From the IMG/VR virus record IMGVR_UViG_3300018080_000116, positions 1 through 64,000 of that record: DNA of 64,000 nt; one strand, written 5' to 3'. This stretch comes from a virus. Both the position numbers and the translations under genes were made by a program. The notes under the pieces were generated by a model. That model saw nothing but the letters and a program-made list of their open reading frames with translations, was not told the origin of the DNA and made no database searches. How positions within the stretch are numbered: the first letter of the stretch is position 1; every line of letters starts with the position of its first letter. Of the stretch, positions 12,860 through 53,129 are shown one piece after another.

Positions 12860-12887
12860 GAACCTTTTTCGGTTTCGTGTGTATAAG
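12860..12887 (+). promoter_or_regulatory. GAACCT-16-TATAAG promoter 1
   Basis: GAACCT 12860-12865, TATAAG 12882-12887 preceded by GTG. An A11 tract lies just upstream. It drives 12923 onward. Confidence 0.75.
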
Positions 12888-12922
12888 GGTCTGGAACCCT
12901 TGTTTCCAGGGAGTATAACCGC

Positions 12923-13342
12923 ATGAAAGTGAAATGTTTGGCCTGCAATACGGAATTCGAGCCGGTTATCAAGCGGACCCGAGATGGACGAGAAATCGAG
13001 TGTCACGTTTGCCATCGACGGTATCGCCATGCCCCAACCAACTTGGAATGGGACAACTGGATCGGTGATCGGCGACTCGATGTTATTGAGCCCGAGAAGC
13101 TGCCGCCGATTGAAATGCTGAAATTCACTCGAAATCTGCATCGCCACTGGTTCGACACCCAGGTGAAAAGAAACGTGGTGTGGGGACCGGAGCGAACGCA
13201 GACGACCCACCCCTGCATGAAACTCATTTGGGATGAAATTCCGCCCGAGGAACAGGCGAATGACGTGGGCATGGTGTTGGACATTTTCGCCTGCCTGGAT
13301 GAAATGGGATTCAAGGTTGTGCCAAAGGATAAAAATGAATAG
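12923..13342 (+). CDS. Zinc-ribbon protein, unknown
   Basis: 139 residues. N-terminal CLACNTEFEPV and CHVCHRRY form a clear zinc ribbon. The rest is helical, with EEQANDVGMVLDIFACLDEMG. First gene behind GAACCT promoter 1, with leader GGGAG. It may be a nucleic-acid-binding regulator, but nothing beyond the ribbon shows it. Confidence 0.7.
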   Translation: MKVKCLACNTEFEPVIKRTRDGREIECHVCHRRYRHAPTNLEWDNWIGDRRLDVIEPEKLPPIEMLKFTRNLHRHWFDTQVKRNVVWGPERTQTTHPCMKLIWDEIPPEEQANDVGMVLDIFACLDEMGFKVVPKDKNE

Positions 13343-13508
13343 GCGACCGAACCTCGCTGCCATTCTGGACGACCCGGCAAGTCGCAAAAGGCTTGTGATA
13401 CAAGCTACGGCGTTCTTGATTGGTGTGGGAAGCGACTTTGATCTTGAATACGAGGAAGCCTTGGCTCGTGCCGAAGCGGCCCATGAGGATAAAAATGATA
13501 ATCAATGA
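13335..13508 (+). CDS. Hypothetical small protein
   Basis: 57 residues from the ATG at 13335, overlapping the upstream gene by 8 bases. RRPNLAAILDDP then ALARAEAAHEDK; acidic and helical. The longer frame upstream (from 13233) only shadows the previous gene. Confidence 0.55.
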   Translation: MNRRPNLAAILDDPASRKRLVIQATAFLIGVGSDFDLEYEEALARAEAAHEDKNDNQ

Positions 13509-13743
13509 AACGGATCGGGATGGTGTTTCCACCGTCCATCGCTGCGAAGGCGAGAGGCCGTTCGCCGAGTTGTACGCCCCGAGAGTGGTCGGCAACCGCA
13601 AGTGGGGTATCAAGTACCGAGGCCCCGGCGATCAGCCGTTCGGCGACACCTTCAACGTCTGCCCCGACACCAGGGAAGCAGCGGTTGCGGAACTGGATCG
13701 CACCATGCGTGTCTGTTCCGACCATCAACTATGCTTGGAATGA
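13495..13743 (+). CDS. Hypothetical protein
   Basis: 82 residues from the ATG at 13495, overlapping the upstream gene by 14 bases. It has IINETDRDGVSTVHR, NRKWGIKYRGPGDQPFG and a C-terminal AAVAELDRTMRVC. Probably a single alpha/beta domain. Not recognised. Confidence 0.58.
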   Translation: MIINETDRDGVSTVHRCEGERPFAELYAPRVVGNRKWGIKYRGPGDQPFGDTFNVCPDTREAAVAELDRTMRVCSDHQLCLE

Positions 13744-13749
13744 AAGATA

Positions 13750-14283
13750 ATGAACGAATACTCTCCCCTCGTGTTGTGGGATGCAGCCAAGAACCCGGAC
13801 GCCGACGAGCCCGACCTGCTTGTTTCTGATGAAACTCAAGCGATTACTGTTATGCGAAACAAGCGGCAGGGCGCTTACATTCCCCGCTGGCTTTATGAGG
13901 AACCGGTTTTCTTGCGACTATGGTCGTTACTGCCCTATCGTATGGACCACGAGCCGTTTTGGGACAAGCAGTACGAGCTAATTGCGAAGGCCACCCCCTG
14001 GCCGATTAAGACCGTCAAGTGCTGCGGTCGTAAGCTGCCTCGATACATTCAGGTCGGCTCGAATTTTATGATCTACTGCGAGGTTTGCGGCTGGCATGTT
14101 TCTACTTTCACCGGCAGCAAGGAAGATATTGTCGAGCGGTGGGAGCAAAGCCTTGCACCACAACCCCATTTGGTGGAACGAGACTGGCGATCCGCTATGA
14201 TGCGGTTCCGCAAGATCAGCGAGCAATCGTCCAGTGTCACCGAGGCAGCGATCCGCTCCAATAGTCGGATCACTGTGGGTTAG
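13750..14283 (+). CDS. Hypothetical protein with zinc-ribbon-like cysteines
   Basis: 177 residues. CCGRKLPRYIQVGSNFMIYC then EVCGW suggests a zinc ribbon in the second half. The preceding segment is rich in Trp, Tyr and Pro. It ends the operon before a palindrome and GAACCT promoter 2. Confidence 0.65.
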   Translation: MNEYSPLVLWDAAKNPDADEPDLLVSDETQAITVMRNKRQGAYIPRWLYEEPVFLRLWSLLPYRMDHEPFWDKQYELIAKATPWPIKTVKCCGRKLPRYIQVGSNFMIYCEVCGWHVSTFTGSKEDIVERWEQSLAPQPHLVERDWRSAMMRFRKISEQSSSVTEAAIRSNSRITVG

Positions 14284-14306
14284 CCCCCCCTTTGGAGGGG
14301 GATTGG

Positions 14307-14320
14307 GAATTTTAAAATTC
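14307..14320. promoter_or_regulatory. Perfect 14-bp palindrome upstream of promoter 2
   Basis: GAATTTTAAAATTC lies six bases before the GAACCT box, preceded by a CCCCCC/GGGGG hairpin at 14284-14302. It may be an operator or an AT-rich UP-type element. Confidence 0.5.
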
Positions 14321-14326
14321 TCAACC

Positions 14327-14354
14327 GAACCTTTTGCCTGCTCGTGTGTATAAG
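14327..14354 (+). promoter_or_regulatory. GAACCT-16-TATAAG promoter 2
   Basis: GAACCT 14327-14332, TATAAG 14349-14354. It drives the N-terminal half of the split helicase. Confidence 0.75.
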
Positions 14355-14415
14355 TGTGTGAGCCGGGTGAGACCCGGCAGGCCGGATCAGTTTCTTTCAG
14401 CAGGAAAGCAGGAAA

Positions 14416-15522
14416 ATGGCCAACTACTCCCGAAACCGTGGCCGTCGTCGCTACCCCGACCGTCAGACCGTCACCGTCAAGGTCGGCGACCTCGAAATTC
14501 CCGGCTGCGTGGTTTTCGCCTCGCAGTACCCTGGCTTTGATCCCGTTGCCAAAAAGCGGATCAAGCCCGGCGACATGATCGCCTACAAAAAGCAGACCAA
14601 CCTGACGGCGCAGCAGAAAAAGGCCCTCTGGCCGAACGGCAAGACCTACAACCTGACGGTTCTCTGGCCGCAACAGCAAGTCGCCAACGGCAATGGCGGC
14701 AAGCCCAAATTCCCGCCTTCGGAGTACCAGCAGGCGATCCGCACGACCCTCTTCGAGAGCGAAGACCATATCGTCATGCGTGCCCTCGCTGGCTCTGGCA
14801 AGACCGCTACGCTTGTGTGGCTGGTCTACGAACTGCAAGATGCAGGCCAGTTGGCAGGCAAGCAGGTGCTCTACATGGCCTTCGGCAAGCGAGATCAGAT
14901 GGACCTCGCCGACCGGCTGGCTGGCACCGGTGTCACCGTCAAGACGACGCACAGCTTCGGCTTCGGCATCCTCAAGGGCGTTCTGGGCGACCAGATGAAG
15001 CCCCGCAAGTCCAAGCAGCAGTATGGCGATATGTTCATCCGCCTGTTGTGCGACAAGGCCGACCTGGACTACTCGGCGAAGAACTTCAAGAAAGTTCGCA
15101 AGACCCAAGAGCACACGCTGCGTGGCGGCGTGTGCGAGTTGGTGAGTTACATCAAGAATTGGGCGCACTTCCCCGAACGGACCAAGGATGGGTGGGCGTT
15201 CACCGAGGAACAGAAGGATGCCATCCGCCAGTACATCGGCATGTACGAGATCGAGCGGCCCGAGGAATGGAAGGGCACCACCGAAGAGTGGGAAGACCTG
15301 CTCGTGGAATTCGCCTGCGAGATCACCTGCTTGTCGATCCCGGTTCCCGGTCAGCAATTGGTCGAGATCGCTTTCGACGACATGCTCTACCTGCCGTTGG
15401 CCCTGGGCCTCGAAATGCCCTACTTCGACTTGCTGTTCACCGACGAATCGCAGGACTTCAATGCCTGCCAAGTGCTCCTGTTGGAGCGGCTGCAAGCCGT
15501 GAAGCCTCCGAAGGGAAAATAA
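14416..15522 (+). CDS. UvrD/Rep-type helicase, N-terminal half (split gene)
   Basis: 368 residues with RecA domain 1 of a superfamily 1A helicase. After an extra basic N-terminal domain (1-98) come the Q motif EYQQAI (about 103), Walker A AGSGKT (125-130), motif Ia (VLYMAFGKR), motif Ib (TTHSFGFG) and Walker B DESQD (343-347). The frame then ends at KPPKGK, exactly where motif III should follow. Motifs III-VI are in the next gene, so the two products would have to assemble. Helicases of this class unwind DNA in repair and replication. Leader has AGCAGGAAAGCAGGAAA. Confidence 0.88.
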   Translation: MANYSRNRGRRRYPDRQTVTVKVGDLEIPGCVVFASQYPGFDPVAKKRIKPGDMIAYKKQTNLTAQQKKALWPNGKTYNLTVLWPQQQVANGNGGKPKFPPSEYQQAIRTTLFESEDHIVMRALAGSGKTATLVWLVYELQDAGQLAGKQVLYMAFGKRDQMDLADRLAGTGVTVKTTHSFGFGILKGVLGDQMKPRKSKQQYGDMFIRLLCDKADLDYSAKNFKKVRKTQEHTLRGGVCELVSYIKNWAHFPERTKDGWAFTEEQKDAIRQYIGMYEIERPEEWKGTTEEWEDLLVEFACEITCLSIPVPGQQLVEIAFDDMLYLPLALGLEMPYFDLLFTDESQDFNACQVLLLERLQAVKPPKGK

Positions 15523-15536
15523 ATTTGGAAACAGAT

Positions 15537-15564
15537 GAACCTTTCGCCCCGAGTTGTGTATAAG
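15537..15564 (+). promoter_or_regulatory. GAACCT-16-TATAAG promoter 3, inside the split helicase locus
   Basis: GAACCT 15537-15542, TATAAG 15559-15564, following AAATAAATTT. It gives the C-terminal half its own transcript. Confidence 0.78.
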
Positions 15565-15606
15565 GGGGCGGAAGGTTTTCATCACCCCAAACTCAAGGAA
15601 CTTGAA

Positions 15607-16896
15607 ATGCCTCGTGTCATTTGTGTCGGCGATCCTCAGCAGTCTCTTTACCGCTTTCGTGGTGCCGACTGTCACGCCTTCGAGCGGATCATCGAAATGC
15701 TCGAACGGAATGGTCGCCCCGTCACCGAGCGGCAACTGCCGATCAACTACCGTTGCGACCGGCTTGTCATCCAGCGTGGTCGCAAGTGGGTGCCCGAACT
15801 TCAAGGCAACTCCGATGCCCTGGGCACCGTGGATATTTGCACGTTCGCCGAGGCGCTTCAGCGAGTCAACAACGACGGCGTGGACATCGCTCTGCCGGAT
15901 GGCGTCGAGAGTGCCCGCCGCAGCCTCCCCCTGCCCGGCAAAGACCCGGTGTCTTTCGCCTTCCTCTGCCGCACCAACAAGGAACTGGTTGTCACCGCTT
16001 ACCAACTGACGGCGATGGCCAAGCGGTGCTGCATCCTCGGTCGTGAGTCGTTCGGCGAGCCCTTGAAGCAACTTGTGGCCCAACTGACGCACAACAAGGT
16101 GGACGAGAGGGGCCGGATTATCGAAGATACCGAGCACGAAGACTACACCAACCGGATCAGTGACAAGCGAGACCCGGAAGGCAACATCGTCGAGGAAGGT
16201 CTGTTGACCCGGCTGGCCAACTACCGCCGAGTCCAGTCCGCCAAGCTGGCTGACGAAGGCTACGAGAACAAGCTGGAAGTGCTTGTGCAAAACTGCGAGT
16301 GCCTGGAAGTTGTCGCCACCCACGTGGCCGACGATAAGGTCACCAGCGTTTTGGCCGAACTGAACAAGTTGTTCACCGATGAACCGGCCCCCGGCGTCAT
16401 TGTCCTGTCTACGGTTCACCGTGCGAAGGGCGGCGAGTGGGACGTGGTGTTCATCCTTCGCCCCGACCTTCTGCCCTTCCCCACGGCAAAGCCGAACGCT
16501 GACGGCACCGTGAGCGATGAACAGCAGCAGGAATTCAACGCCTGCTACGTGGCTGCGACCCGTGCCCGTCATCGTTTGTACTACGTCGAGAACTGGCCGT
16601 TCGGCAACATGGCTCAACGGTCGTTGCAGTTCGATGCCGAAGACATCCTTGCCATCACGCAGTATCCGGACGTTGACCCGGAAGAGTACCTCACCGATCC
16701 CGTTGCGACTCAGTACACCGAGGCAAAGCACGCCCCGGCTGAATTGAACGATGCGGCAGTCACCGAGCCGTTGCCCTACGACAAAGAGGAAGAGCCCCAC
16801 GAACGTGGTGGCATCACCAAGCGACAGTTCGGCAAGATGCTGGACGGCATGAAGGGGGAGCACGGCCCGGTTGTCGATGATGGAGAGCCGTTTTAA
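15607..16896 (+). CDS. UvrD/Rep-type helicase, C-terminal half (split gene)
   Basis: 429 residues from the ATG at 15607 (AAGGAAC upstream, about 40 bases after the promoter); an earlier in-frame ATG at 15535 lies before the -10 box. It starts directly with motif III (VGDPQQSLYRFRGAD), then motif IV (LPINYRCD), motif V (STVHRAKGGEWDVV near residue 265) and motif VI (YVAATRARHRLYYV near 313). The acidic tail is of unknown role. With the preceding gene it makes a complete helicase of about 800 residues. Nothing in the gap suggests an intein or a simple frameshift: the gap holds a stop, a spacer and a promoter. Confidence 0.88.
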   Translation: MPRVICVGDPQQSLYRFRGADCHAFERIIEMLERNGRPVTERQLPINYRCDRLVIQRGRKWVPELQGNSDALGTVDICTFAEALQRVNNDGVDIALPDGVESARRSLPLPGKDPVSFAFLCRTNKELVVTAYQLTAMAKRCCILGRESFGEPLKQLVAQLTHNKVDERGRIIEDTEHEDYTNRISDKRDPEGNIVEEGLLTRLANYRRVQSAKLADEGYENKLEVLVQNCECLEVVATHVADDKVTSVLAELNKLFTDEPAPGVIVLSTVHRAKGGEWDVVFILRPDLLPFPTAKPNADGTVSDEQQQEFNACYVAATRARHRLYYVENWPFGNMAQRSLQFDAEDILAITQYPDVDPEEYLTDPVATQYTEAKHAPAELNDAAVTEPLPYDKEEEPHERGGITKRQFGKMLDGMKGEHGPVVDDGEPF

Positions 16897-16898
16897 CC

Positions 16899-16929
16899 GA
16901 ACCATCGACCTTTTGTGTGTGTCTACAAT
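16899..16929 (+). promoter_or_regulatory. Hybrid promoter upstream of parB-like gene
   Basis: CCGAACCA resembles the GAACCT box, but the -10 is TACAAT (16924-16929) as in the sigma-70-like family. Spacing is 19 bp, so strength is uncertain. Confidence 0.45.
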
Positions 16930-16963
16930 CCAACGTACCCGTTTTGACCAAAGGGAGAACCCA

Positions 16964-17875
16964 ATGTCCGACAAGTCCATCCATCGCATCCACCTTCGTG
17001 ACATCACCGTCACCCACAACCCCCGCACACCGGCCCGTGGCCTCGCCCGTGGTCTGGTCGAAGAGGGCATCGAGTGCTCGCCGATTGCTCTTGTGCATGA
17101 TCTGGCTTTGAGCGATAATGCCGCCGAGCGTGCCGAATTCTGCCGCCTCGTCGAAGCCTACGAGAGCGGCCCGAAGGGTTTGGTTGAACTGGCAGCATCC
17201 CGCAGGAAGCAAGAATTGCAGCCGATCAGTCTCCGAAGTTTCCGGTCGCAAGTGGCCGGAACCGATCCGGTCGAGTACGTCCAGCGTTACGGCGTCGTCA
17301 TGGGTGAGCGCCGTTATCTGGCCGCTGCGTACAACTACGCCAAGCACGGCGGTGCCTGCGACATCGGTGCCACGTTCTTGCGAGTCACCACCGATGAAGC
17401 CTACGATCTTGCCGTCGCCGAGAACCTGCAACGGCAGGACATGACCGACGTGGAGATTGGCCACGTGTTCCGAGAATACTACGACGATGGCATGACCATC
17501 CGGCAGGTCGCCGAGCACCTGAACCAGGACTACCAGTTTGTGCGTGGTCGTCTCGGCCTCACCTACCTGGAAGAGAAGGAACAGCAGGCCGTCGAAGACG
17601 GTCGCCTGGGCGTCACCAAGGCCATCGAGAAGGGCTTGAAGGTCAAGAGCGGCAAGTCCAACGGCGACGAAGAGATCGACCCCAAGGCCGACGAGCGGCG
17701 TCGTGTGGCCACGTTGAAGGCCGTCGAGGCGGAATTCGACGTAACACCCCGCAACCGCAAGGGCTACTTGCAGGGTCTCGCCTGGGTCATGGGTATCGAC
17801 TACGATACCGCTCTGGAAGAGAGCGAAGTCCGCATCGCCGAGGCGATGGAGAGAGAAGCCAAGAAAGCGGCCTGA
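16964..17875 (+). CDS. ParB/Spo0J-like DNA-binding protein
   Basis: 303 residues from the ATG at 16964 (AAGGGAG upstream). The ParB N-domain shows QPISLRSF, GERRYLAAAY (114-123) and VAENLQRQDM (151-160). A helix-turn-helix follows (MTIRQVAEHLNQDYQFVRGRLG). The C-terminus lacks an obvious leucine-zipper dimerisation domain. Such proteins bind parS-like sites in partition or act as CTPases or transcription factors. No parA was found nearby, so a regulatory role is possible. A terminator separates it from the sigma-like gene. Confidence 0.82.
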   Translation: MSDKSIHRIHLRDITVTHNPRTPARGLARGLVEEGIECSPIALVHDLALSDNAAERAEFCRLVEAYESGPKGLVELAASRRKQELQPISLRSFRSQVAGTDPVEYVQRYGVVMGERRYLAAAYNYAKHGGACDIGATFLRVTTDEAYDLAVAENLQRQDMTDVEIGHVFREYYDDGMTIRQVAEHLNQDYQFVRGRLGLTYLEEKEQQAVEDGRLGVTKAIEKGLKVKSGKSNGDEEIDPKADERRRVATLKAVEAEFDVTPRNRKGYLQGLAWVMGIDYDTALEESEVRIAEAMEREAKKAA

Positions 17876-17883
17876 CAAACGAA

Positions 17884-17916
17884 CAACTCCCCCGGCACTG
17901 GTGCCGGGGGGAGTTG
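17884..17916 (+). terminator. GC-rich hairpin terminator
   Basis: CAACTCCCCCGGCAC and GTGCCGGGGGGAGTTG pair with one bulge and a 2-base loop. Its CCCCGGCAC core is almost identical to the hairpin at 47285. Confidence 0.65.
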
Positions 17917-17956
17917 AATATAGTTTTCAAAAACTCAGCAGGAAAGCGAGAACAGG

Positions 17957-19174
17957 ATGTCGGTTTACCAGGGACAAGAATACTACACGCTGCCGTACTC
18001 TCCGATGGACCCCGAACGCACCGAGGCAACGTCTTCGATCATGCGTAGGGGCAACGAAGAGATCAAGCGGTTGCACAAAGCGTTGCGCAAGGCCAACAAG
18101 TTGGGGCCGAATCAGTACATTCGTGCTGAATTCCGCCAGGAGTTGTTCGACTGGCTGGCTTCCATGAACGGTCAGGTGTCCAGACGTATAGACCCCAAGG
18201 GCAGGGTGGGCCGTCCGTCGAAAAAGCCGCTTTTGTTTGTGCCGAGTGTGACCAAAAACCCCCGTTGCGGTTTTGTCTTTGACGACGAAGGCAAGCGGAA
18301 GAAAGCGCCGAAGCCGAGGGGTGTCAGAATCTCGAATCGAGCCCTCTCCCGCATTGTTGCCGTCCGCAACATTCAAGATGAAGTGCTCTGTGGTTTCAGT
18401 CGGCTGTTTGAGCGGCTGGCCATTCGGTTCTGGTCAAACCACAAGGAACAGACGCTTGGAGTCCAAGACTATTACGATGAAGCTGTGATGGCAGGCATCA
18501 ACGCCATCTATCATTACACCAGGGAAGACGTGGAGTTTATCACCTACCTGTACCACTGCGTTCGTAGGCGCATGGGCACGGCCACGGTGAAAGACAATCC
18601 GTTGAGTCCCTGGTCGAATGATGCTCGTCGTCTTCATCGGATGTACGAGGATGCCAGGGCATCCATGAACCGGCCCACGACGTTTGCCGAAGTGTGTGAA
18701 TACTGCCAGTTCACCGACGCTGAGGCCCGGTTGGTGGAATTGACCTTGGCCGAAGTGGTTCAGGCGTGGGACTTCGCTGGTGGGGGTGAGAGTCGCCATC
18801 AGGCGGTGGAAGCCTACGAGGAAAATCACGTGCGAACCAACGGTCGTCAAAACAACTGCAATGGCCTGTACCGAAGCGGCCTTCACCTGGGCAACTTCCA
18901 TGATGGCGAGGAAGAGTTGCGGTTGGACATCGACCAAAGGGCGGCTGTAGAGCGTGCTCGTGCGAAGATGACCGAATTCGAGCGTGCTGTACTTGACGCC
19001 TACTTGAACGATGGCGAGTGGGGCTGGCAGTCCCGTGTAGCCGAGCAACATATCAACCCGAAAACCGAATTGCCATATAGCCGCCGAGCACCTGCGGTTT
19101 TGTGGCCCCGGATTGTGCGAACGATCCTGGAAGAGTATCAGGGCGAAGAAATCGACGCCGTGAAAGTTGCGTGA
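17957..19174 (+). CDS. Divergent sigma-70-family RNA polymerase sigma factor
   Basis: 405 residues. Region 2-like: RLFERLAIRFWSNHKEQTLG, then DYYDEAVMAGINAIYHYT and FITYLYHCVRRRM (about 149-206), matching the core-binding helix and the -10-recognition end. Region 3-like: DARRLHRMYEDARASM then RPTTFAEVCEYC (222-250). Region 4-like: AKMTEFERAVLDAYL to RAPAVLWPRIVRTILEEY (336-394). Residues 1-140 are a basic extension of no known type, and 275-325 is an insert. It probably binds host RNA polymerase and redirects it. Ribosome site CAGG, seven genes downstream of the first GAACCT promoter. Family call by motif order, not by strong identity. Confidence 0.72.
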   Translation: MSVYQGQEYYTLPYSPMDPERTEATSSIMRRGNEEIKRLHKALRKANKLGPNQYIRAEFRQELFDWLASMNGQVSRRIDPKGRVGRPSKKPLLFVPSVTKNPRCGFVFDDEGKRKKAPKPRGVRISNRALSRIVAVRNIQDEVLCGFSRLFERLAIRFWSNHKEQTLGVQDYYDEAVMAGINAIYHYTREDVEFITYLYHCVRRRMGTATVKDNPLSPWSNDARRLHRMYEDARASMNRPTTFAEVCEYCQFTDAEARLVELTLAEVVQAWDFAGGGESRHQAVEAYEENHVRTNGRQNNCNGLYRSGLHLGNFHDGEEELRLDIDQRAAVERARAKMTEFERAVLDAYLNDGEWGWQSRVAEQHINPKTELPYSRRAPAVLWPRIVRTILEEYQGEEIDAVKVA

Positions 19175-19253
19175 GCACCCAAGCACCATTTAACGCCATG
19201 CCACTTACAAAAGGGAGACCAACTAGAGCGACAAACAACCCGAAAGGCTATAA

Positions 19254-20534
19254 ATGGTACGCAAGAAACAACCGCATCCGAGCCTGCTTGGTACGCCCCA
19301 GTACGAGCGCACGTTCGATCATAGCGGCCTCACTGATGAAGACCGGCGATGGATCACCGATTCACGTAACCCGAAGTGCCCGTTGTCCAAGTTCATTGGC
19401 AATGAGAAGGCGCTGCGGCGTCTGTCTCGTGCTGCGTATGCGGCGTGGGGAGAGCCGAACCACGAGTGCAGCGATCAATCCTTTGCCCTGGTCGGCCCGT
19501 CTTCGACTGGTAAGACGACGCTGGCGAGACTGTTCGGAGATACGGTGCTTCTGCCGTTTGTGGAAGTCCACCCGAAGGCCGTAAAAGGTCCGAAGAACAT
19601 TTTGGAAGAAATCCAACTTGTTCTTGAGAAGATCAAAGTGTTCAGCAGAAGCCTGGGTAAGGAAATCACCCTACAGCTTGTGCCCAACATCGACAACCAC
19701 TTCGTCATTCCGCCGCTGGTGCTGTTCATCGACGAGGTTCATGCGTTGCCGAAGCAGACTGTGCAAAGCCTGCTCAAGGCCATTGAACCGAAGGATGGAA
19801 AGCTGGCCACCGAGGAAGGGTGGAGTGCCGACTGCCGGAACATTTGTTGGGTGATTGCCACCACGGATCGTGGTCTGTTGTTCGATGCGTTCGACACTCG
19901 GTTCCGCAAGGTCTACTTGAATCTCTACACCCGTGAAGAGATCGCCGAGATCGTTCAGTTGAACAACAAAGACTGGCCGATGTCGGTGTGCCGTATCGTG
20001 GCAAAGTATTGCTGGCGTGTTCCTCGTGAGGCTTTGGCCTTTGCCAAAGACATGCGGACGGAATATGAAATCCAGTCTAAGCGTGGTCGTGTGGATTGGG
20101 AACAGGTGGCAGCCGCCGTGGCGCAAGACAGTGACATTGATCCGTTGGGCATGACGCTCCAGCGCTTGCGCATCCTGGTGGCCTTGGGTCAGCAGGGAGC
20201 GATCCCGAGGGACCGTTTGTGCCACTATGCTCAGTGTAAGGTGGAAGAACTAACCAAATTCCTGATGCCGCCGCTGATTACCGCTACGTCGAATGAACCG
20301 GCATTGGTGGCCGTGACCAGCAAGGGATACTCGATCACCAGGGCTGGCTTGGAACAACTCGATGCTCGTGGCATCCCGCATCCTCCGGAAGAGAAGGTGG
20401 TTGTCATGGACATTCCGCCTTTGGATTGGGGCCAGTACGACCCCGTGGACATGGGCTATGGTGGCTCCACTGGTCGAGGCAACGCCAAGGTGGTGAAGCC
20501 GAAGCTGTGGCTGCCGTTCGGTGACAAGAAATAA
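19254..20534 (+). CDS. RuvB-like AAA+ ATPase
   Basis: 426 residues. Walker A GPSSTGKTT (81-89), Walker B LVLFIDEVHAL (155-165), sensor 1 IATTDRG (201-207) and arginine-finger region DTRFRKV. LNLYTREEIAEIV matches RuvB's FYTxEEL helix. A C-terminal winged-helix segment (LRILVALGQQGA, then LTKFLMPPLIT) follows. RuvB drives Holliday-junction branch migration; here no ruvA or ruvC is nearby. It is longer than RuvB by about 80 residues, split between the N-terminus and a Pro/Gly-rich tail. Ribosome site GAAAGG. Confidence 0.85.
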   Translation: MVRKKQPHPSLLGTPQYERTFDHSGLTDEDRRWITDSRNPKCPLSKFIGNEKALRRLSRAAYAAWGEPNHECSDQSFALVGPSSTGKTTLARLFGDTVLLPFVEVHPKAVKGPKNILEEIQLVLEKIKVFSRSLGKEITLQLVPNIDNHFVIPPLVLFIDEVHALPKQTVQSLLKAIEPKDGKLATEEGWSADCRNICWVIATTDRGLLFDAFDTRFRKVYLNLYTREEIAEIVQLNNKDWPMSVCRIVAKYCWRVPREALAFAKDMRTEYEIQSKRGRVDWEQVAAAVAQDSDIDPLGMTLQRLRILVALGQQGAIPRDRLCHYAQCKVEELTKFLMPPLITATSNEPALVAVTSKGYSITRAGLEQLDARGIPHPPEEKVVVMDIPPLDWGQYDPVDMGYGGSTGRGNAKVVKPKLWLPFGDKK

Positions 20535-21802: not shown

Positions 21803-22091
21803 ATTCCAGCATGTTTTGGGAATCGCAGTCGTAAAGCGTGCCCTTGAATCGAGTTACAGGCCATCGCCAGCCGAGCAACTGCTGGATTTGGCAAAATCTT
21901 TGGAAAAGACCGAACGCTGTGGCTGTTTGGCGTGTATAAGGGTGCGAAGAGACCTGGAATCTCAGGTGCCGGAACAATTCCGGCGTCTGGCCAGGGCCTT
22001 GGCTGCCGCTCGTCCATCGTCGCAGTTCAGGGCCATGTTCGAGGAATGGACCGCCAAACAAATCGCTGAACACCTGGGCGTGAATCCATGA
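21789..22091 (+). CDS. Hypothetical helical protein
   Basis: 100 residues from the ATG at 21789 (GGGGGA eight bases upstream; an in-frame ATG at 21780 overlaps that site). CGCLACIRVRRDLE is a CxC..C knuckle in an otherwise helical, basic protein. GTGTATAAGGG inside the gene mimics the TATAAG promoters but encodes VRV-type residues here. Confidence 0.58.
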   Translation: MNLNEFQHVLGIAVVKRALESSYRPSPAEQLLDLAKSLEKTERCGCLACIRVRRDLESQVPEQFRRLARALAAARPSSQFRAMFEEWTAKQIAEHLGVNP

Positions 22092-35005: not shown

Positions 35006-35033
35006 GAACCTTTTCCGTTGAGTTGTGTATAAG
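35006..35033 (+). promoter_or_regulatory. GAACCT-16-TATAAG promoter 4
   Basis: GAACCT 35006-35011, TATAAG 35028-35033. It starts 12 bases after the terminator T-run and drives 35067. Confidence 0.76.
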
Positions 35034-35066
35034 GCCGTGTAACAGCAACCACGTAGGGAGTTGACC

Positions 35067-36140
35067 GTGGCAAAGAAAGCCTACCAGTACGACAAGTCGG
35101 CATTGCAGGAAGCGATCCGCAAGGTGGAGAGTGAGCAAAAGCCCGCCACCCACGGCGAATTGTGGAAGCTGGTTGCTGCCGAGTACAACATCGCCAACAA
35201 GCCTCAAAAGTCTCTTCAAGCAGGGACCGCTCGCAATCGTGCCGAGCAATGGAATTTGGAAGTCACGACCGCTAAGGGGGAACGTGGCCAGAAGCCCAAG
35301 GGTGGTTCTCGGTCCAAACCCAAGCCCGCTTCCAAGCCTGCTCAAGTCCACGATACCGGTGGTCCAGGTTTCAAGCCGTGTCACAATTGCGGCAAGTTCT
35401 ATGGAGTGCGTATTTCCCACTGCCCGGCGTGCGGTGCGAAGTACAAGAAACAACCCAAACCGAAGGTGGCCAAGAAACCCAAGAAACGGAAGCCCATCGA
35501 AGACTATCCCGTTTTTGATGAAGGCGGCAAGGGTCGCAAAGAGTGCTCCAATGACACTTGCGGCAAGTTCTACTTTACCATCCTGCCCAAGTGCCCGAAG
35601 TGTGGCACCGAGTATGTCAAACCCGATCAGGGCATTAAGACTTACGATGGGCCTGGGCGCATGCGGAAGCAATGCCCCGAGTGCAAAGTTTACGTGGGCT
35701 ACTCTGCCGAGAAGTGTGCGTGCGGCCACGACTTCGCCGCCGACGTGCCCGATCCCCCTGCTGAGCCCGAACCCAAGCGAGAGCCGAAGCATAGCAAGGT
35801 GGATCGGTGGTCGCAACCAACGAATATCGAGATCGAGGCCACACAATCGTTTCAGCGTTGTGGTTGCGGTGGTCGGATCATCCTGGCACCGGCAGGTGGT
35901 TCTCCCGCCAAGCTGGAATCCACCGACGAGGAAGCGGTCCAGGTTTGGCACGATAAGGTGATGGAAGACGGCCACTCCAAGGGCAACCACTACAGCCCTG
36001 CCGCACTGCGTTACTTTGTCGCCTTCTATCACTTCGACCGCAATAGCGACGAGTATGCAGAAGTGTGCGAAGTGTTGAGGGGCCTTTATGCCCGCCATGA
36101 CAACGAGCCTGTTGAAGAGGAAGAACTAATCGAAGCGTAA
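35067..36140 (+). CDS. Multi-zinc-ribbon protein
   Basis: 357 residues from GTG at 35067 (AGGGAG upstream). The N-terminus is a helical, basic segment (YQYDKSALQEAIRKVESEQ). Then at least three ribbons: CHNCGKFYGVRISHCPACG, CSNDTCGKFYFTILPKCPKCG and CPECKVYVGYSAEKCACG, with a fourth pair CGCGG. Lys-Pro-rich linkers separate them. Such a tandem array points to nucleic-acid or protein binding. It is the lead gene behind promoter 4. Confidence 0.75.
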   Translation: MAKKAYQYDKSALQEAIRKVESEQKPATHGELWKLVAAEYNIANKPQKSLQAGTARNRAEQWNLEVTTAKGERGQKPKGGSRSKPKPASKPAQVHDTGGPGFKPCHNCGKFYGVRISHCPACGAKYKKQPKPKVAKKPKKRKPIEDYPVFDEGGKGRKECSNDTCGKFYFTILPKCPKCGTEYVKPDQGIKTYDGPGRMRKQCPECKVYVGYSAEKCACGHDFAADVPDPPAEPEPKREPKHSKVDRWSQPTNIEIEATQSFQRCGCGGRIILAPAGGSPAKLESTDEEAVQVWHDKVMEDGHSKGNHYSPAALRYFVAFYHFDRNSDEYAEVCEVLRGLYARHDNEPVEEEELIEA

Positions 36141-44137: not shown

Positions 44138-44165
44138 GAACCTTTTCCCCTTTCCCGTGTATAAG
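44138..44165 (+). promoter_or_regulatory. GAACCT-16-TATAAG promoter 5
   Basis: GAACCT 44138-44143, TATAAG 44160-44165. A perfect 12-bp inverted repeat covers the probable start site (44167-44192). Confidence 0.76.
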
Positions 44166-44166
44166 G

Positions 44167-44192
44167 GAGTGGCAGGGCAAGCCCTGCCACTC
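44167..44192 (+). promoter_or_regulatory. Inverted repeat at the start site of promoter 5
   Basis: GAGTGGCAGGGC and GCCCTGCCACTC flank AA, beginning two bases after the -10. It could be an operator or a 5' stem-loop of the message. Confidence 0.55.
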
Positions 44193-45214: not shown

Positions 45215-45745
45215 ATGACAACCGTACCGCTGAAAGATCGCAAGCAACCCTCCAAGTCATACGCCGATTGTGTGACCATCGAAGCAACTCGCACGTTTTG
45301 GTGTGGGGCCGACAACAACTTCTCCGGTGAATGGCGGCACGCCGGTGGCACCGAATGGAAGCCCGAAGATCAGCTTGACCCCGACGACGACGAAGCCGGT
45401 GGCCACTTGAAGTTCGGCAGTGATATTTGGGCCGATTTAATCTGTGCCATCTTCGACGACAATAGTCTTGGGGATGTATGTTACGACGTGATCGGTGGCT
45501 CCGTTACCATCGACATGAGCGAGTGTAAGTGGACCGAGGAACAGGTCATCGCCCTAATCGCCGAGGCGCTGGCACACCTGGAAGAGGGCTGGCCGATCCA
45601 CTACGACTGCGAACCCTACCTGCACAACAAGACCGGCAATCCCAACTATGTCGATCCCGAGTGGCGATTCGGCAACATTGTGCTGCCCGAACGCATCCAG
45701 GACTTGATCGGCTATAAAGTTCAAGAAAATACCGAACCCTCTTGA
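45215..45745 (+). CDS. Hypothetical acidic protein
   Basis: 176 residues from the ATG at 45215. Trp-rich and acidic (FWCGADNNFSGEWRHAG, SDIWADLICAIFDD), then CKWTEEQVIALIAEAL and a HYDCEPYLHN segment. Its stop overlaps promoter 6. Confidence 0.62.
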   Translation: MTTVPLKDRKQPSKSYADCVTIEATRTFWCGADNNFSGEWRHAGGTEWKPEDQLDPDDDEAGGHLKFGSDIWADLICAIFDDNSLGDVCYDVIGGSVTIDMSECKWTEEQVIALIAEALAHLEEGWPIHYDCEPYLHNKTGNPNYVDPEWRFGNIVLPERIQDLIGYKVQENTEPS

Positions 45746-45762
45746 GCCCTCGTGTGTATAAG
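45734..45762 (+). promoter_or_regulatory. GAACCC-17-TATAAG promoter 6
   Basis: GAACCC 45734-45739 (C in place of T), TATAAG 45757-45762, preceded by GTG. It overlaps the upstream stop codon. Confidence 0.7.
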
Positions 45763-45786
45763 GGGGCGAACACGAGGAACCGTGAA

Positions 45787-46184: not shown

Positions 46185-46190
46185 AGATCA

Positions 46191-46316: not shown

Positions 46317-46353
46317 CCAGATTGTGTAACCCCAAACTGTTAAGGAAACGAAA

Positions 46354-46947: not shown

Positions 46948-46986
46948 CGGTGTGTTCAGCAGCAGGAACCGAATAGGAGTTTCAAC

Positions 46987-47274: not shown

Positions 47275-47284
47275 TCCCGTGCAA

Positions 47285-47308
47285 GCCCCCGGCACTTGTG
47301 CCGGGGGC
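47285..47308 (+). terminator. GC-rich hairpin terminator
   Basis: GCCCCCGGCAC/GTGCCGGGGGC, 11 bp around TT. Near-identical core to the hairpin at 17884. Confidence 0.65.
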
Positions 47309-47477
47309 AGTCAGAGTTGTTCTAGCATCAGAGAATGAGAATGGAACGTCTTTTGACAAAAATAAGAATTAGAGCGCCGCCTGTAGCGCTAATGAACCAA
47401 GCCCTCGCCCGTTCGGGACCGGGCGGGCGAGGGCCATAATTTCCACCACCATCAGCACCAGCAGGAAACAAGAAACC
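47309..47477 (+). other. Intergenic region between two terminator-like hairpins
   Basis: A second hairpin GCCCTCGCCCG (47401-47411) with CGGGCGAGGGC (47424-47434) lies here. TTGACA occurs near 47353 but no good -10 follows. A short RNA between the hairpins is possible. Confidence 0.45.
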
Positions 47478-48209: not shown

Positions 48210-48571
48210 GCACACCCGAAAGACTCGAAGCCATCAAGATCAACGTGCCCGATTGGTTTGCACGTGACGACTTCCAGGCGTGGCTCAACGACAAGAGCAA
48301 GGGCATCGCCACTTGGCACTACAAGGGCAGGCCCACCGAGTCGTCCGACGTGTTTATGACGTTCGATCATGGGGAAGGATCGGACATCAACGATCCCGAC
48401 CTTCCCGCAGACATTCGTGATGCCATCGTACAGTTCTGTGTGGATGCCAACATGGGCTACGGTGTCATCTGGCTAACCAACCTGTCCGACTCCGAGGAAC
48501 CATGCTACGACTTTGCCAGCAGGCGAGTCCCTTGGATCGCACCGGACAACCCTCACGATCCAGGAGAGTGA
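48203..48571 (+). CDS. Hypothetical protein
   Basis: 122 residues. TPERLEAIKINVPDWFARDD, WLNDKSKGIATWHYKGR, then VIWLTNLSDSEEPCYDFA. Overlaps the upstream gene by 7 bases. Confidence 0.6.
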   Translation: MLGTPERLEAIKINVPDWFARDDFQAWLNDKSKGIATWHYKGRPTESSDVFMTFDHGEGSDINDPDLPADIRDAIVQFCVDANMGYGVIWLTNLSDSEEPCYDFASRRVPWIAPDNPHDPGE

Positions 48572-48578
48572 AAGCACC

Positions 48579-49055
48579 ATGCCCGTAACGAGAACCTATC
48601 ACCCGATCCGACCGCCTTCTCGTGCGTTCATGCGAATGAATGACGAGTGGCAGGAATTGAAAGTCACCGCTTGCATCCAAGAGGGTGGCTGCACCAAGAA
48701 TGAAGTTGTTCTCCCGCAAGGCGTCAGTTTCATCGTCACCAACGCAGGACTCGAATTCGACGAGCCCGAAGAGTACAACGCCTACCCACACGTGGGCGAC
48801 AGCGAGAATCTGTTCCAGGTGTACCGTGACGGCAACGGCCAACTGTACTTCAAGGATGACGATGGCGATTGGCTCTACTTCGAGCCCGAGAATCCGCCTC
48901 GTCCCGACCAAGTGGTTCAGTTGCCCGGCGACTGCTACTGTTCCGGTGGGCGTGGTCCCATCGAAGTGGATCGCCTGGAACATGACATTCCCCTGGGTGA
49001 CGTGATCCTTGGAGAGACCTGGGAACAAGTGGCAGCCAAGAGTCACGGCGTCTGA
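48579..49055 (+). CDS. Hypothetical beta-rich protein
   Basis: 158 residues. VVLPQGVSFIVTNAGLEFDE, FQVYRDGNGQLYFKDDDGDW and CYCSGGRGPIEVDRL. A beta-sandwich is likely. Confidence 0.62.
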   Translation: MPVTRTYHPIRPPSRAFMRMNDEWQELKVTACIQEGGCTKNEVVLPQGVSFIVTNAGLEFDEPEEYNAYPHVGDSENLFQVYRDGNGQLYFKDDDGDWLYFEPENPPRPDQVVQLPGDCYCSGGRGPIEVDRLEHDIPLGDVILGETWEQVAAKSHGV

Positions 49056-49089
49056 TCGAGAGCACCTTTAACCTACGGAGTTGCGTACC

Positions 49090-49308
49090 ATGCCAAGCAT
49101 CAACCTTTGTTTCCAGGGCTACATCAACGGTGTTGAAGTCACTAAGGCAACCAACGCCGATGGAGAGTCCGTTGACGTGTCCGAAATGAGCGAGGGAGAA
49201 TTGTGCAGGAAGCTGAACGCTGGCGAGTTGTTTGTCAGCCTGGGCGACTTGCTGTACGAGGGCGATGACGAAGAGATCGAACTGCACGACTTCGCCCCTG
49301 GAATATAA
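49090..49308 (+). CDS. Small acidic hypothetical protein
   Basis: 72 residues. INLCFQGYINGVEVTKATN then acidic and helical (EMSEGELCRKLNAGELF). CCTACGGAG leader. Ends before a hairpin. Confidence 0.58.
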   Translation: MPSINLCFQGYINGVEVTKATNADGESVDVSEMSEGELCRKLNAGELFVSLGDLLYEGDDEEIELHDFAPGI

Positions 49309-49318
49309 CTTTCAACAT

Positions 49319-49346
49319 GACTCCCGGCCCGCATGGGCCGGGAGTC
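49319..49346 (+). terminator. GC-rich hairpin terminator
   Basis: GACTCCCGGCCC/GGGCCGGGAGTC around GCAT, 12 bp, then TTAAT. Confidence 0.68.
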
Positions 49347-49370
49347 TTAATCAAGCAGGAGACCGAGACT

Positions 49371-49790
49371 ATGTTGAAGCAGCATTGCAGCGTGGGGATG
49401 CAGGTGTACTTTGGCCGTCAGAAGGGCGAGAAGACCCTGGGCGAAATCGTCAAGCTGAACCCCCGGAAAGCCAAGGTCAAGCAACTGGAATCCAGGGGCA
49501 CCTTGAAAAGCCATCCGGTTGGAACCATCTGGACGGTGCCCTACGAGTTGATCGAACCGGCCACCCACGAGGATCGTGGCGACTACTTCCAGGTGCAGTT
49601 GCGAGACATGATCGCCGAAGTGGCGGCACGTGAGGGAACAGGCCGTCAGCAGGCCCTCAGAGACGTTCTGACGGACTTGCGGCACGTGGCCGACTCCGAG
49701 GGCCTGGACTTCGATGGGGCCGTTGTAGGCTCCGCTGACGTGTATATGGAGGAACTGGCCGAGGGTGAACTGGCCAGGGGCATCGCCTAA
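49371..49790 (+). CDS. Hypothetical KOW/SH3-like protein
   Basis: 139 residues from the ATG at 49371. MQVYFGRQKGEKTLGEIVKL then KAKVKQLESRGTLKSHPVGT and WTVPYELI is the short barrel pattern of KOW-like proteins widespread in plasmid and phage genomes. A helical C-terminal half follows. AGGAGA upstream. Confidence 0.62.
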   Translation: MLKQHCSVGMQVYFGRQKGEKTLGEIVKLNPRKAKVKQLESRGTLKSHPVGTIWTVPYELIEPATHEDRGDYFQVQLRDMIAEVAAREGTGRQQALRDVLTDLRHVADSEGLDFDGAVVGSADVYMEELAEGELARGIA

Positions 49791-49807
49791 AAAGTGAAAT
49801 AAATACC

Positions 49808-49833
49808 GAACCTTTCCCCTCCCTGTGTATAAG
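49808..49833 (+). promoter_or_regulatory. GAACCT-14-TATAAG promoter 7 (short spacer)
   Basis: GAACCT 49808-49813, TATAAG 49828-49833, AAATAAATA just upstream. The spacer is 14 bp, two less than the others. Confidence 0.68.
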
Positions 49834-49884
49834 AGGGTCTGAGTAAACCACTTCACCTACCACCAGACTTGTGTGAGAATTACA

Positions 49885-50595
49885 ATGCAGGTATTCCAAC
49901 TGACGCTGTTAGGCTACGACCCCGAGAACCCGACGCCCGCCTCTGAGGCGTGCATCAAGTGGGTCAAGTGCTCCGACCGCAATCGCCTGAACCTTTGGAT
50001 TGTGGGGTGCGACTTGGATCAATTGGTCCGAGACATCGACGACAACCCGCCGCCCGAGTGGGGCTTCGATGATGGCGTGGACGTGATCCTGACCGAGAGC
50101 GGTGGGGAAGAGTGGTCGCCGTCCTACGGTGGCGTGGACGCTCCGCTCGACGTGTGGCGAGAGACCGTCCAGAAAGCGTGTGCCGAACGCATCGAGTGGT
50201 TGGGCACCGTCAAAGACCCCAACTTCGTGGATGCCGGTGCCATCGGCAATCTGTTTAGCTTTGGTCTGCCCGCCGATGAAAATGCAACCACTGCCAACTT
50301 CGATCCGAACGACCCGGACGCCATCGCCGAGCAACTTGGCCTCAACTGCGTGCAGGACAAGCACGGCAAGCCAGTCTACCCCGGCACGTGGCTTTCGAGC
50401 GACAGCGACCCATCTAAGCCGCCCGTCGCCTTGGCGATCCAGGTGTATGACAATGGCCAAGTGGTGATCGACACCAATCCCAAGATACCTCACCGCCTGC
50501 GACCAAAAAGCGACTACGTGACCGTAGGCAACCTTGCGGCCTGTGGTTGGGTCCGCAGCAACGAGCAACCCGAAGATAAATCGGAGCAATTATGA
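49885..50595 (+). CDS. Hypothetical acidic protein
   Basis: 236 residues from the ATG at 49885 (GTG 49873 alternative). VFQLTLLGYDPENPTPAS, LNLWIVGCDLDQLVRDI, and RLRPKSDYVTVGNLAACGW. Probably two alpha/beta domains. ATGA overlap with the next gene. Confidence 0.62.
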   Translation: MQVFQLTLLGYDPENPTPASEACIKWVKCSDRNRLNLWIVGCDLDQLVRDIDDNPPPEWGFDDGVDVILTESGGEEWSPSYGGVDAPLDVWRETVQKACAERIEWLGTVKDPNFVDAGAIGNLFSFGLPADENATTANFDPNDPDAIAEQLGLNCVQDKHGKPVYPGTWLSSDSDPSKPPVALAIQVYDNGQVVIDTNPKIPHRLRPKSDYVTVGNLAACGWVRSNEQPEDKSEQL

Positions 50596-50798
50596 TCGCA
50601 TTTTTGATTATCGCCATCGTGTTGGCCGTTGGCTCTTTGTTGGCGTGGTTGTTCACGTTCACACTCAACGGCAAGGGACCGTCCGCTGGTTTCCTGGGCA
50701 TGATGATCCTGGATAATATCAAGTGGGCACTTGTTGCCGCCGCCGTCAGCTTTGCCCTCTGGTTGGGGGCGGTCCTGGAACGACTCTACGGAGGGTGA
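50592..50798 (+). CDS. Two-helix membrane protein
   Basis: 68 residues. IAFLIIAIVLAVGSLLAWLF and KWALVAAAVSFALWLGAVLE are hydrophobic. A 17-codon frame between it and 50846 (from GTG 50802) is not called. Confidence 0.64.
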   Translation: MIAFLIIAIVLAVGSLLAWLFTFTLNGKGPSAGFLGMMILDNIKWALVAAAVSFALWLGAVLERLYGG

Positions 50799-50845
50799 AG
50801 TGTGGTTTCCCGCTGACCTTGAACAAGTGATCGAAGAGGTACGAA

Positions 50846-51475
50846 ATGGGTAGCATGATCGAAGTCACCGAAGGCATGGAAGTCGAGTTGCTCATTAACA
50901 CGTGGGCGGACGACAGCCTCTTCAACCACACCAAACAGCACGAGTTGAAGGCCGGTACGACCTTGAAGCACGTGGCCGCAACGGATCGAGGCGACTCGTT
51001 CTGGAAGATCATGGGCAGCGACGATGGTGCGACCTATCAATTCAGTCGGCGGTTGGTTCGCACACGTTACCCGAATGACCGTGGCGTGATCGTCGATCCC
51101 TCGGCCTTCGAGATCAAGAAAGGGTTTCCCCGCACGAGCAACAAGGCCCGTAGGCTCTTCCAGGAACGCCCGGATAACGTCTTCGAGCATCCGACCGACC
51201 TGCCTGTGCCCAAAAGCGAAATCCCCCTGGGGCCGATTGAAGGGTGGGTCTGCTTTGCGCCTCGCATGAATGGAGACCCAAGCCAGATCATCGGCCCGTT
51301 TGTGCCAGTAGTCCAAGATGAATTCGACGATGGTGGTCGGTGTATCATCACCGAGGATGGGACTAACTTTTGGTACGATCCCGAGAGCACCGAACATGGC
51401 CGACGTGGGTATCCCTGTTGGTTCCAGTCCGGTTCGACTCTCCGCTTCGTGAAAGCAAGGAAAAAAGACGGTTGA
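50846..51475 (+). CDS. Hypothetical protein
   Basis: 209 residues. IEVTEGMEVELLINTWADDS, FQFSRRLVRTRYPNDRGVI, a basic centre, and a C-terminal GYPCWFQSGSTLRFVKAR. Beta-rich. Confidence 0.62.
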   Translation: MGSMIEVTEGMEVELLINTWADDSLFNHTKQHELKAGTTLKHVAATDRGDSFWKIMGSDDGATYQFSRRLVRTRYPNDRGVIVDPSAFEIKKGFPRTSNKARRLFQERPDNVFEHPTDLPVPKSEIPLGPIEGWVCFAPRMNGDPSQIIGPFVPVVQDEFDDGGRCIITEDGTNFWYDPESTEHGRRGYPCWFQSGSTLRFVKARKKDG

Positions 51476-51561
51476 GAATCCGGACAAACCACGAGATTCA
51501 CCGTTAGTGAGCTAGTAGGAAAACGGTGGAACTTCAACATTCAAGTATCGGAGACAGTGTG

Positions 51562-51762
51562 ATGCCAAAAGAACTCGGCTTTTACGTTCGTCGTTGCATC
51601 GAATCCGGCAGGCGTGTTCTGATTGAGGTTTTTATGTCCGAACCGGAACACGTTTTGTATTGGCGATTCGAGGGCGGTTCCGAGGTTTTTCTGGTCGAAG
51701 ATTCCCCTGCCGAAAACGACACGGCGAGATTCAAGTACATCAAAGCCATCAGGAGCAAGTGA
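51562..51762 (+). CDS. Small hypothetical protein
   Basis: 66 residues from the ATG at 51562 (GGAGACAG upstream). LGFYVRRCIESGRRVLIEVF, YWRFEGGSEVFLVEDSP; a small barrel-like fold. A GTG at 51526 is an alternative start. Confidence 0.55.
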   Translation: MPKELGFYVRRCIESGRRVLIEVFMSEPEHVLYWRFEGGSEVFLVEDSPAENDTARFKYIKAIRSK

Positions 51763-51766
51763 GACC

Positions 51767-52552
51767 ATGAGTGACAAACTCGCAGTATCCGAATTCGTCA
51801 AACGTCAGACCGCCGACAGCCAGTTCAGCCACTTCGACGGTGGTTGGCAAGCCCTGTTGCTTCTCACCCTGCAACACTTCGACAAGGCAACGCCCGGCTA
51901 TCGTGACGGCGTGTGTCTTGTGCCGGTGCCCGCTGATAAATTTTATAGCGCCATCGTCCAACTCGAAGACGGCGACCTGCTTGCTGGTGACTACACGCCA
52001 CGACAGGAAGGCGAAGAGCCTCGTAAGAGCGTGAACGTGGTTGGCGGCAAAAAGATGCAGGCCAAGTCCTGCCAAATCGTGTGCTACCGCCACGACGTTC
52101 TTGCCGAGAACGAAGAGCACTCTTGTGATGCCGAGTGGGAGATCATCAGCATCAACGCAAGCCCCTTCGAGGCCGACGTGGAAATCCCGATGGGCGTGGG
52201 CACGTTGATCGCTAACTACTTCCAGTTCAGTGGTGGCACCGAAATGAAAGGTGTCGATGCTGAACAGTTCTGCCAAAAGCTGAAAGCCAGTGCCACGTTC
52301 TGGAAAGACAAGGCGCACGCAGCGCCCGCAGACCACGGCGAGTATTACGTGGCCATCATGGTGCAGTATGGCAGTGGGCCGGTGGACAGCGACAATCTGA
52401 GCCCGTCAACCGTCAAGTTCTTCGGCCATGACTACGTTGCCGCCAACAGGTGGAAGGAACAGAAGGCCCTGATCGACGAGACGTGGAACGTCATCAAGTG
52501 TGCGATGCCGAAGGTCGGCGACGAGTACATTCCGTTTGACCAGGAAGAGTAG
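51767..52552 (+). CDS. DUF3228 family protein
   Basis: 261 residues. Strong family-type segments: FSHFDGGW, GYRDGVCLVPVPADKFYS, YRHDVLAENEEHSCDAEWEI and LIANYFQFSGGTE. The DUF3228 core is about 190 residues, and a 70-residue extension (MVQYGSGPVDSDNLSPST onward) is extra. Function of the family is unknown. Start chosen by AGGAGCAAG upstream. Confidence 0.68.
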   Translation: MSDKLAVSEFVKRQTADSQFSHFDGGWQALLLLTLQHFDKATPGYRDGVCLVPVPADKFYSAIVQLEDGDLLAGDYTPRQEGEEPRKSVNVVGGKKMQAKSCQIVCYRHDVLAENEEHSCDAEWEIISINASPFEADVEIPMGVGTLIANYFQFSGGTEMKGVDAEQFCQKLKASATFWKDKAHAAPADHGEYYVAIMVQYGSGPVDSDNLSPSTVKFFGHDYVAANRWKEQKALIDETWNVIKCAMPKVGDEYIPFDQEE

Positions 52553-52553
52553 A

Positions 52554-52826
52554 ATGAGCCAGCCCATCCTCGAAACCGTTACGTTCAAGTGCCCCTGTGG
52601 CGCAACTGTTGATTACCCCAACACCATGAGGGGTGCAATCAACGTGGGCGATGCCGTCAAGGCGACCGGCTGGTACTCATACCACAACAACTACACCTAT
52701 GGATCAATTTGGGTTTGTCCCGATTGTGCAAAGCAGGCCCAAGAGCACGCAGAGGAAATCAAGCGACTGCTTGGCACCGATAGGGTCAACGTATCGTCCA
52801 TCATTAAATCGGAAGGGAAGAAATGA
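52554..52826 (+). CDS. Zinc-ribbon protein
   Basis: 90 residues. FKCPCGATVDYPN and WVCPDCAKQAQEHA form the ribbon. ATGA overlap downstream with the membrane protein. Confidence 0.62.
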   Translation: MSQPILETVTFKCPCGATVDYPNTMRGAINVGDAVKATGWYSYHNNYTYGSIWVCPDCAKQAQEHAEEIKRLLGTDRVNVSSIIKSEGKK

Positions 52827-53083
52827 ACTGGCTTTACCTTGTGCCCGCCTTCATCGTTGGCATCTTCCTGCTGTACCTCGCCCTGTCCTGGGCGGTTTAC
52901 TGGTGGCGTGAACGACGCAGGCTCCGCAAGCTGGAAACCGATCCGGTGGTCTTCAACGGTCAAGCAGCCGACCACTGTATGGCCGAGACCATCCGATCCC
53001 TCAACGAGTACATGGCCAGCCCGGCAGGCCGAGCCCTGCACGAGCGAGCCATGATGGACGATCCAGAGAACCCCAAGAGCTAG
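52823..53083 (+). CDS. Single-pass membrane protein
   Basis: 86 residues. NWLYLVPAFIVGIFLLYLAL is the membrane helix, followed by a basic WWRERRRLRKLE cytoplasmic stretch. Confidence 0.62.
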   Translation: MNWLYLVPAFIVGIFLLYLALSWAVYWWRERRRLRKLETDPVVFNGQAADHCMAETIRSLNEYMASPAGRALHERAMMDDPENPKS

Positions 53084-53101
53084 ATTTATTTCAAATTTAC
53101 C

Positions 53102-53129
53102 GAACCTTTCGCCATCTGGCGTGTATAAG
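53102..53129 (+). promoter_or_regulatory. GAACCT-16-TATAAG promoter 8
   Basis: GAACCT 53102-53107, TATAAG 53124-53129. AT-rich TTATTTCAAATTT upstream. Drives 53176. Confidence 0.76.

Follow-up and report, generated by a model that had tools for sequence, protein, structure and literature searches.

A one-way array of predicted promoters and a candidate sigma factor in a relative of the huge phages

What reads a two-box motif that recurs in a single orientation before the genes of a virus? The window analysed here, the whole stretch of 64,000 nucleotides under study, is bases 1-64000 of a 138,192-bp IMG/VR virus record. Judged by its sequence, the record is a tailed phage related to the huge phages: it encodes a T4-like baseplate wedge protein at 131.6-133.2 kb with 45.7% identity to its counterpart in LR756511, a 595-kb uncultured phage record, and it is probably part of a larger one, given relatives with genomes of 225-595 kb. 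IMG/VR relatives were gathered with the baseplate wedge protein (the best 80 of 176 stretches, on contigs of up to 340 kb), and the closest by that protein is G001 (64%). Gene calls came from a home-made script, and individual starts may be off.

The record also encodes a PilM-like type IV pilus protein (579-1787; Pfam E 3e-26), a protein resembling NAD-dependent sugar epimerases (9498-10463), which has a relative in LR756511 at 34% identity, and an ArdC-type anti-restriction protein (record positions 74920-75951) that lies within the block of predicted promoters and has relatives in LR756511 and in another related phage, G004. A palindrome, GGATATATCC, is over-represented in the 138-kb record and likewise in G001, where the two strands together have 24 counts.

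Two classes of sites in one orientation

The original prediction listed eight promoters of the form GAACCT-N16-TATAAG, all on the plus strand. All eight sites exist: seven fit GAACCT-N14/16-TATAAG exactly, and the one at 45734 has GAACCC and a spacer of 17 bp. In the window GAACCT-N14..18-TATAAG is matched 7 times, where shuffled sequences average 0.01 matches, and the whole record holds 14 exact copies on the plus strand, with none on the reverse strand and none in the reversed control. When the search was relaxed and anchored on TGTATAA, the total for the 138,192-bp record came to 22 sites between 12860 and 82534 (block 12.8-82.6 kb), a count that admits GAACCC variants and one weak copy (21912, GAACGC). 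Every one of these class I sites is on the plus strand, with 9 in the window and 13 beyond it. The sites in the window are listed here, together with one of a second class described below.

12860..12894, plus strand: class I site, upstream of ORF 12923-13342
14327..14361, plus strand: class I site, after a hairpin and upstream of the N part of a UvrD-like helicase (14416)
15537..15571, plus strand: class I site, at the break that splits the UvrD-like helicase in two
21912..21947, plus strand: weak class I site, GAACGC, inside a weakly scored ORF
35006..35040, plus strand: class I site, directly after a strong T-run hairpin and upstream of ORF 35067-36140
44138..44172, plus strand: class I site, upstream of ORF 44217
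45734..45769, plus strand: class I site, GAACCC, spacer 17, overlapping the stop codon of ORF 45215-45745 and upstream of ORF 45787
49808..49840, plus strand: class I site, spacer 14, upstream of ORF 49885
53102..53136, plus strand: class I site, upstream of ORF 53176
10463..10479, plus strand: class II site AGTCCGTATGTATAAGC, at the stop codon of ORF 9498-10463

Among the neighbouring genes, ORF 12923-13342, the first after site 12860, shows weak matches to a zinc ribbon and to a RyR domain, and the UvrD-like helicase (14416-16896) is split into an N-terminal ORF (14416-15522) and a C-terminal ORF (15535-16896). The homologue of ORF 53176 in G001 is also preceded by a promoter-like site.

When aligned, the class I sites give a consensus made up of an A/T-rich tract, ACC-GAACC(T/C)TTT, a 16-17 bp spacer and (G)TGTATAAG-GGGGCGAAC; the alignment also yields GTGTATAAG, followed by the conserved GGGGCGAAC. 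The spacer measures 16 bp in 14 sites, 17 bp in seven and 14 bp in one. The A/T-rich tract, already noted in the original prediction, is confirmed by a fixed position 8 nt before GAACC that is A in 20 of the 22 sites. No 10-mer in the record is more over-represented than GTGTATAAGG, and TGTATAA occurs 29 times on the plus strand and never on the minus strand, the next base always being G or C. Seven further plus-strand sites, here termed class II, keep TGTA(TAA) and have an AGTnCnG-like stretch just before TGTA in place of GAACC. They lie at 10463, 70320, 73740, 76371, 76411, 80485 and 84964; the last five are clear, and 70320 reads TGTATGA. Class II, the 13 outside sites, site 21912, the conserved GGGGCGAAC after the -10 and the sigma gene of the window all go beyond the original prediction, which understates the case, since through the shared -10 the class I sites are connected with both a second promoter class and the analogous arrays of relatives.

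From their sequence, these sites are very likely promoters. Their parts would be an upstream element rich in A/T, (ACC)GAACC(T/C)TTT as the -35 box, a spacer of 16-17 bp, (G)TGTATAAG as the -10 box and GGGGCG as a G-rich discriminator. With TATAAG taken as the -10, transcription is predicted to start at about the A of GGGGCGA, some 7 bases after TATAAG. The same boxes might instead bind a phage repressor or activator, or act as leader elements at the RNA level, without being a promoter core, and both the conservation that runs past the -10 into GGGGCGAAC and a weak CCTT-AAGG pairing possible across the spacer would fit such a role. We consider this very improbable, as the spacer length ranges from 14 to 17 and two boxes at promoter spacing suit a polymerase better. 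Moreover, the AAGG half changes to AAGA three times and to AAGT once with no compensating change in the CCTT half, and a CCTT/AAGG hairpin was rejected since the variant sites break the pairing. A known RNA element was also rejected, the window being without any Rfam match.

Placement of the sites and restriction of the motif

The -10 box falls outside called genes in 20 of the 22 class I sites (intergenic fraction 0.166; binomial P 4e-14), in agreement with the earlier description of the motif as lying between operons or over a stop codon, and the two exceptions, 15537 and 21912, are both at doubtful gene calls. The short leader expected before a start codon was also found, 18 sites being intergenic and no more than 150 nt from a start codon versus 1.9 at random. 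Strong hairpins, some with T-runs, precede sites 14327, 35006, 70440, 70897, 76478, 79574 and 82534, so that at these sites part of the A/T-rich tract may be the tail of a terminator. The motif was correctly said to be absent from 1-10 kb, and it is likewise absent from 83-138 kb, including a minus-strand block (87-118 kb) and the baseplate genes (123-138 kb); a word enrichment search over these baseplate genes and the minus-strand block gave no comparably enriched word. We propose that the array would drive a one-way block of mostly small genes of unknown function (12.8-83 kb) and not the baseplate genes. One-way blocks of small unknown genes are typical of phage host-takeover genes.

How private is the motif? 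A longer pattern matched 13 contigs of IMG/VR once each, no other contig having more than one copy, and a scan of 84,980 bacterial and archaeal genomes with a still longer pattern yielded only four matches, each of them single, for which reason the motif was rejected as a bacterial signal. A loose pattern found 0-2 matches in each of 22 related phage records, overall no more than in the reversed control, and the motif has no match in LR756511, so that it is not common to the relatives either. The predicted confinement of the enrichment to this phage thus holds; since near-identical genomes may be missing from the searched sets, private means limited to the phage and its nearest kin. The motif can serve as a signature for linking contigs of the same phage across metagenomes.

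In many phages, takeover genes are transcribed by the host holoenzyme. As genes of this type appear to be driven here, and as the upstream element, the spacer length of 16-17 bp and TATAA are common to promoters in general, the sites could be early promoters for a host sigma factor of unusual preference, aided by the A/T-rich upstream element. However, the final -10 position is never T in 29 sites, the motif is nearly absent from the bacterial and archaeal genomes, and relatives that have part of the gene block in common carry TGTACCCT or TGTACTAA instead, which makes this reading quite improbable. Neither the TTGACA-like -35 nor the TATAAT-like -10 ending in T of a housekeeping sigma-70 promoter was found, the -35 being GAACC(T/C), and the DNA examined shows no enrichment of sigma-70-type promoters, in line with the specificity other than sigma-70 that the original prediction had drawn from the -35 box.

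A candidate sigma factor in the block

Site 15537 is the nearest site upstream of three consecutive genes.

16964..17875, plus strand: ParB-like protein, directly before the sigma gene
17957..19174, plus strand: divergent sigma-70-family protein of 405 aa, candidate specificity factor
19254..20534, plus strand: AAA clamp-loader-like protein, after the sigma gene

The 405-aa protein matches Pfam Sigma70_r2 at E=0.02, below the Pfam cut-off, and the PHROG 'RNA polymerase sigma factor' at E=4e-4. It has homologues in G004 (30% identity) and LR756511 (26%), the latter matching Pfam Sigma70_r2 at 4e-5, and three scans of viral contigs gave no further homologues beyond that of G004. When a profile of the three sequences was compared with the PDB, 35 of the 37 matches were sigma factors (best 1e-5), the alignment covering sigma region 2, which is responsible for core binding and -10 recognition, and reaching into region 3. 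The C-terminus contains a conserved helical stretch with no significant profile match to region 4, whose helix-turn-helix serves the -35 box. The AlphaFold model of the protein (mean pLDDT 44.6) was set aside as too poor for use; a Foldseek search with it returned mostly sigma factors or RNA polymerase models, none at E=0.001. The ParB-like gene directly precedes the sigma gene in both the phage and G004, and the order of the sigma gene followed by the clamp-loader-like gene is common to the phage and LR756511.

No RpoB-type polymerase was matched in 11 records, in which all controls were positive, and no T7-type RNA polymerase was found in the phage's own record, G001, G004, G012 or G016, where the T7 control was detected; LR756511 has a T7-type match below the cut-off only (E=0.03). 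A phage RNA polymerase was consequently rejected as the reader, and the single-subunit polymerase gene that characterizes T7-type phage promoters was not found. Because no phage RNA polymerase was found, a sigma factor on the host core polymerase is the simplest reader, and we propose that host core RNA polymerase with a phage-encoded sigma-70-family factor would read the promoters. That a phage sigma reads the class I sites is likely; the best candidate is the 405-aa protein, which we hold, with somewhat less assurance, to be the probable reader. Since its gene lies inside the block, downstream of three promoter copies, positive feedback would be expected. If the genes of the block are the first to be expressed, either the virion would need to bring the phage sigma along or still earlier promoters would need to supply it.

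ECF promoters have an AAC-containing -35 box, which the AAC of the present -35 box recalls. LR756511, G004 and G012 encode three, four and three proteins matching Sigma70_r2, respectively, and since relatives carry several sigma genes and the record is probably a fragment, the true reader could be another phage sigma encoded elsewhere, for example an ECF-sized or gp55-like one, and the pairing of the 405-aa protein with the promoters is a proposed one. We nevertheless find another sigma an unlikely reader: none was seen in the 138,192-bp record, and all of the compared records that encode the 405-aa family (the phage, G004 and LR756511) have TGTA-type arrays, while G012 has other sigmas but CRISPR-like arrays as its top repeat. 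In G001 an array is present, yet a sigma of the 405-aa family was not found in its 131 kb. The sigma factors of the relatives are of several types each, including small gp55-like ones and a sigma-70-like one of 315 aa.

On the whole we favour, with moderate confidence, promoters of a huge-phage relative read by the host core polymerase and a phage sigma, with the 405-aa protein as the best candidate, activity, start point and pairing being what we infer. The private promoter set of alternative specificity that had been proposed is thereby supported, with a candidate sigma factor encoded in the window itself.

Known phage systems and the arrays of relatives

Phage sigma factors with dedicated promoters are already established (phiEco32, 7-11), and the present arrays are a variant of such systems. 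In the known ones the promoters are usually few and confined to a single phage or a small group of close relatives, and a search of open-licence papers found no description of arrays such as these. T4-type late promoters, TATAAATA, are read by gp55 and lie upstream of structural genes. The present clade has a T4-like baseplate wedge protein, and gp55-like proteins were recognized by eye in LR756511 and G012; unlike T4 late promoters, the sites have a -35 box and precede non-structural genes, and T4 late promoters were rejected, there being no copy of TATAAATA in the record. T4-style cassettes of a promoter and a stem-loop were also considered, as several sites follow strong hairpins.

In phiEco32, sigma gp36 reads the middle and late promoters tAATGTAtA, with starts 6-8 bases downstream, and six such single-element promoters, lacking a -35, have been mapped for middle and late genes (PMC8948821). 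The present sites are similar in their TGTATA core, in having no sigma-70 -35 match and in the proposed use of a phage sigma with the host core polymerase, but here 22 two-box and 7 single-element sites stand before non-structural genes. The gp36 family is marked by a homologous sigma and a single-element promoter; class I has two boxes, and the 405-aa protein has no detectable homology to gp36 (hhalign probability 0.2%), so the array would resemble the phiEco32 and 7-11 systems in the way it works, with no membership of the family implied. In 7-11, sigma gp47 reads GTAAtg-(16)-aCTA at eight promoters of late genes (PMC8948821). Class I has in common with these the two boxes, the 16-bp spacer and a predicted reading by a phage sigma, and differs in the boxes themselves and in that the 7-11 promoters serve late genes. 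Huge phages, in whose size class LR756511 (595 kb) falls, have been reported to encode sigma-70 in a survey whose excerpted text describes no cognate promoters for their sigmas (Al-Shayeb et al. 2020, PMC7162821).

Arrays were found in the relatives as well. G001 carries the class II-like form AGTCCAGGTGTATAAC about 60 times in a single orientation, G004 has TAGGTCCAGTGTACCCTAG about 60 times within 28 kb, and LR756511 has a one-way array of TAAAGCTGTACTAAA, with TAAAGCTGTAC(T/A)AA occurring about 100 times. Sites before start codons number 21 in G001, 45 in G004 and 31 in LR756511 (4.8, 11.3 and 9.6 at random, respectively). Further one-way words, which may be comparable arrays, occur in G015, G020 and G016; G015 has repeats of TAGAGTATTCTACAAG and the one-way word ACGCACTTGTACTCT. 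Two other top words were rejected as promoter arrays, that of G002 being a tandem repeat at a contig end and that of G012 belonging to two CRISPR-like arrays (8350-8963 and 13358-13729; repeat around CACCCCTACGCATGTAGGGAAAAC, period ~61). When homologous genes were compared, the relative had a site in 6 of the 7 cases where the phage has one and in 3 of the 20 where it has none (Fisher P 0.002), in a small table whose thresholds were chosen within the analysis.

Housekeeping sigma factors of the hosts can hardly account for dialects as divergent as these. We tentatively suggest, as a possibility, a clade of huge phages with a fast-evolving sigma-promoter pair, in which the array would be kept before homologous genes while its words are rewritten in each lineage (TGTATAAG with its -35, AGTCCAGGTGTATAAC, TAGGTCCAGTGTACCCTAG, TAAAGCTGTACTAAA), so that tens of promoters and their sigma would co-evolve, the present phage being caught between single-element class II and two-box class I. 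The arrays are comparable across the relatives, with partly homologous genes, very different promoter words and an adjoining divergent sigma family, and would thus offer a natural series for studying joint change in a specificity factor and its tens of sites, as well as a ready reporter motif for the timing of host takeover by huge phages.
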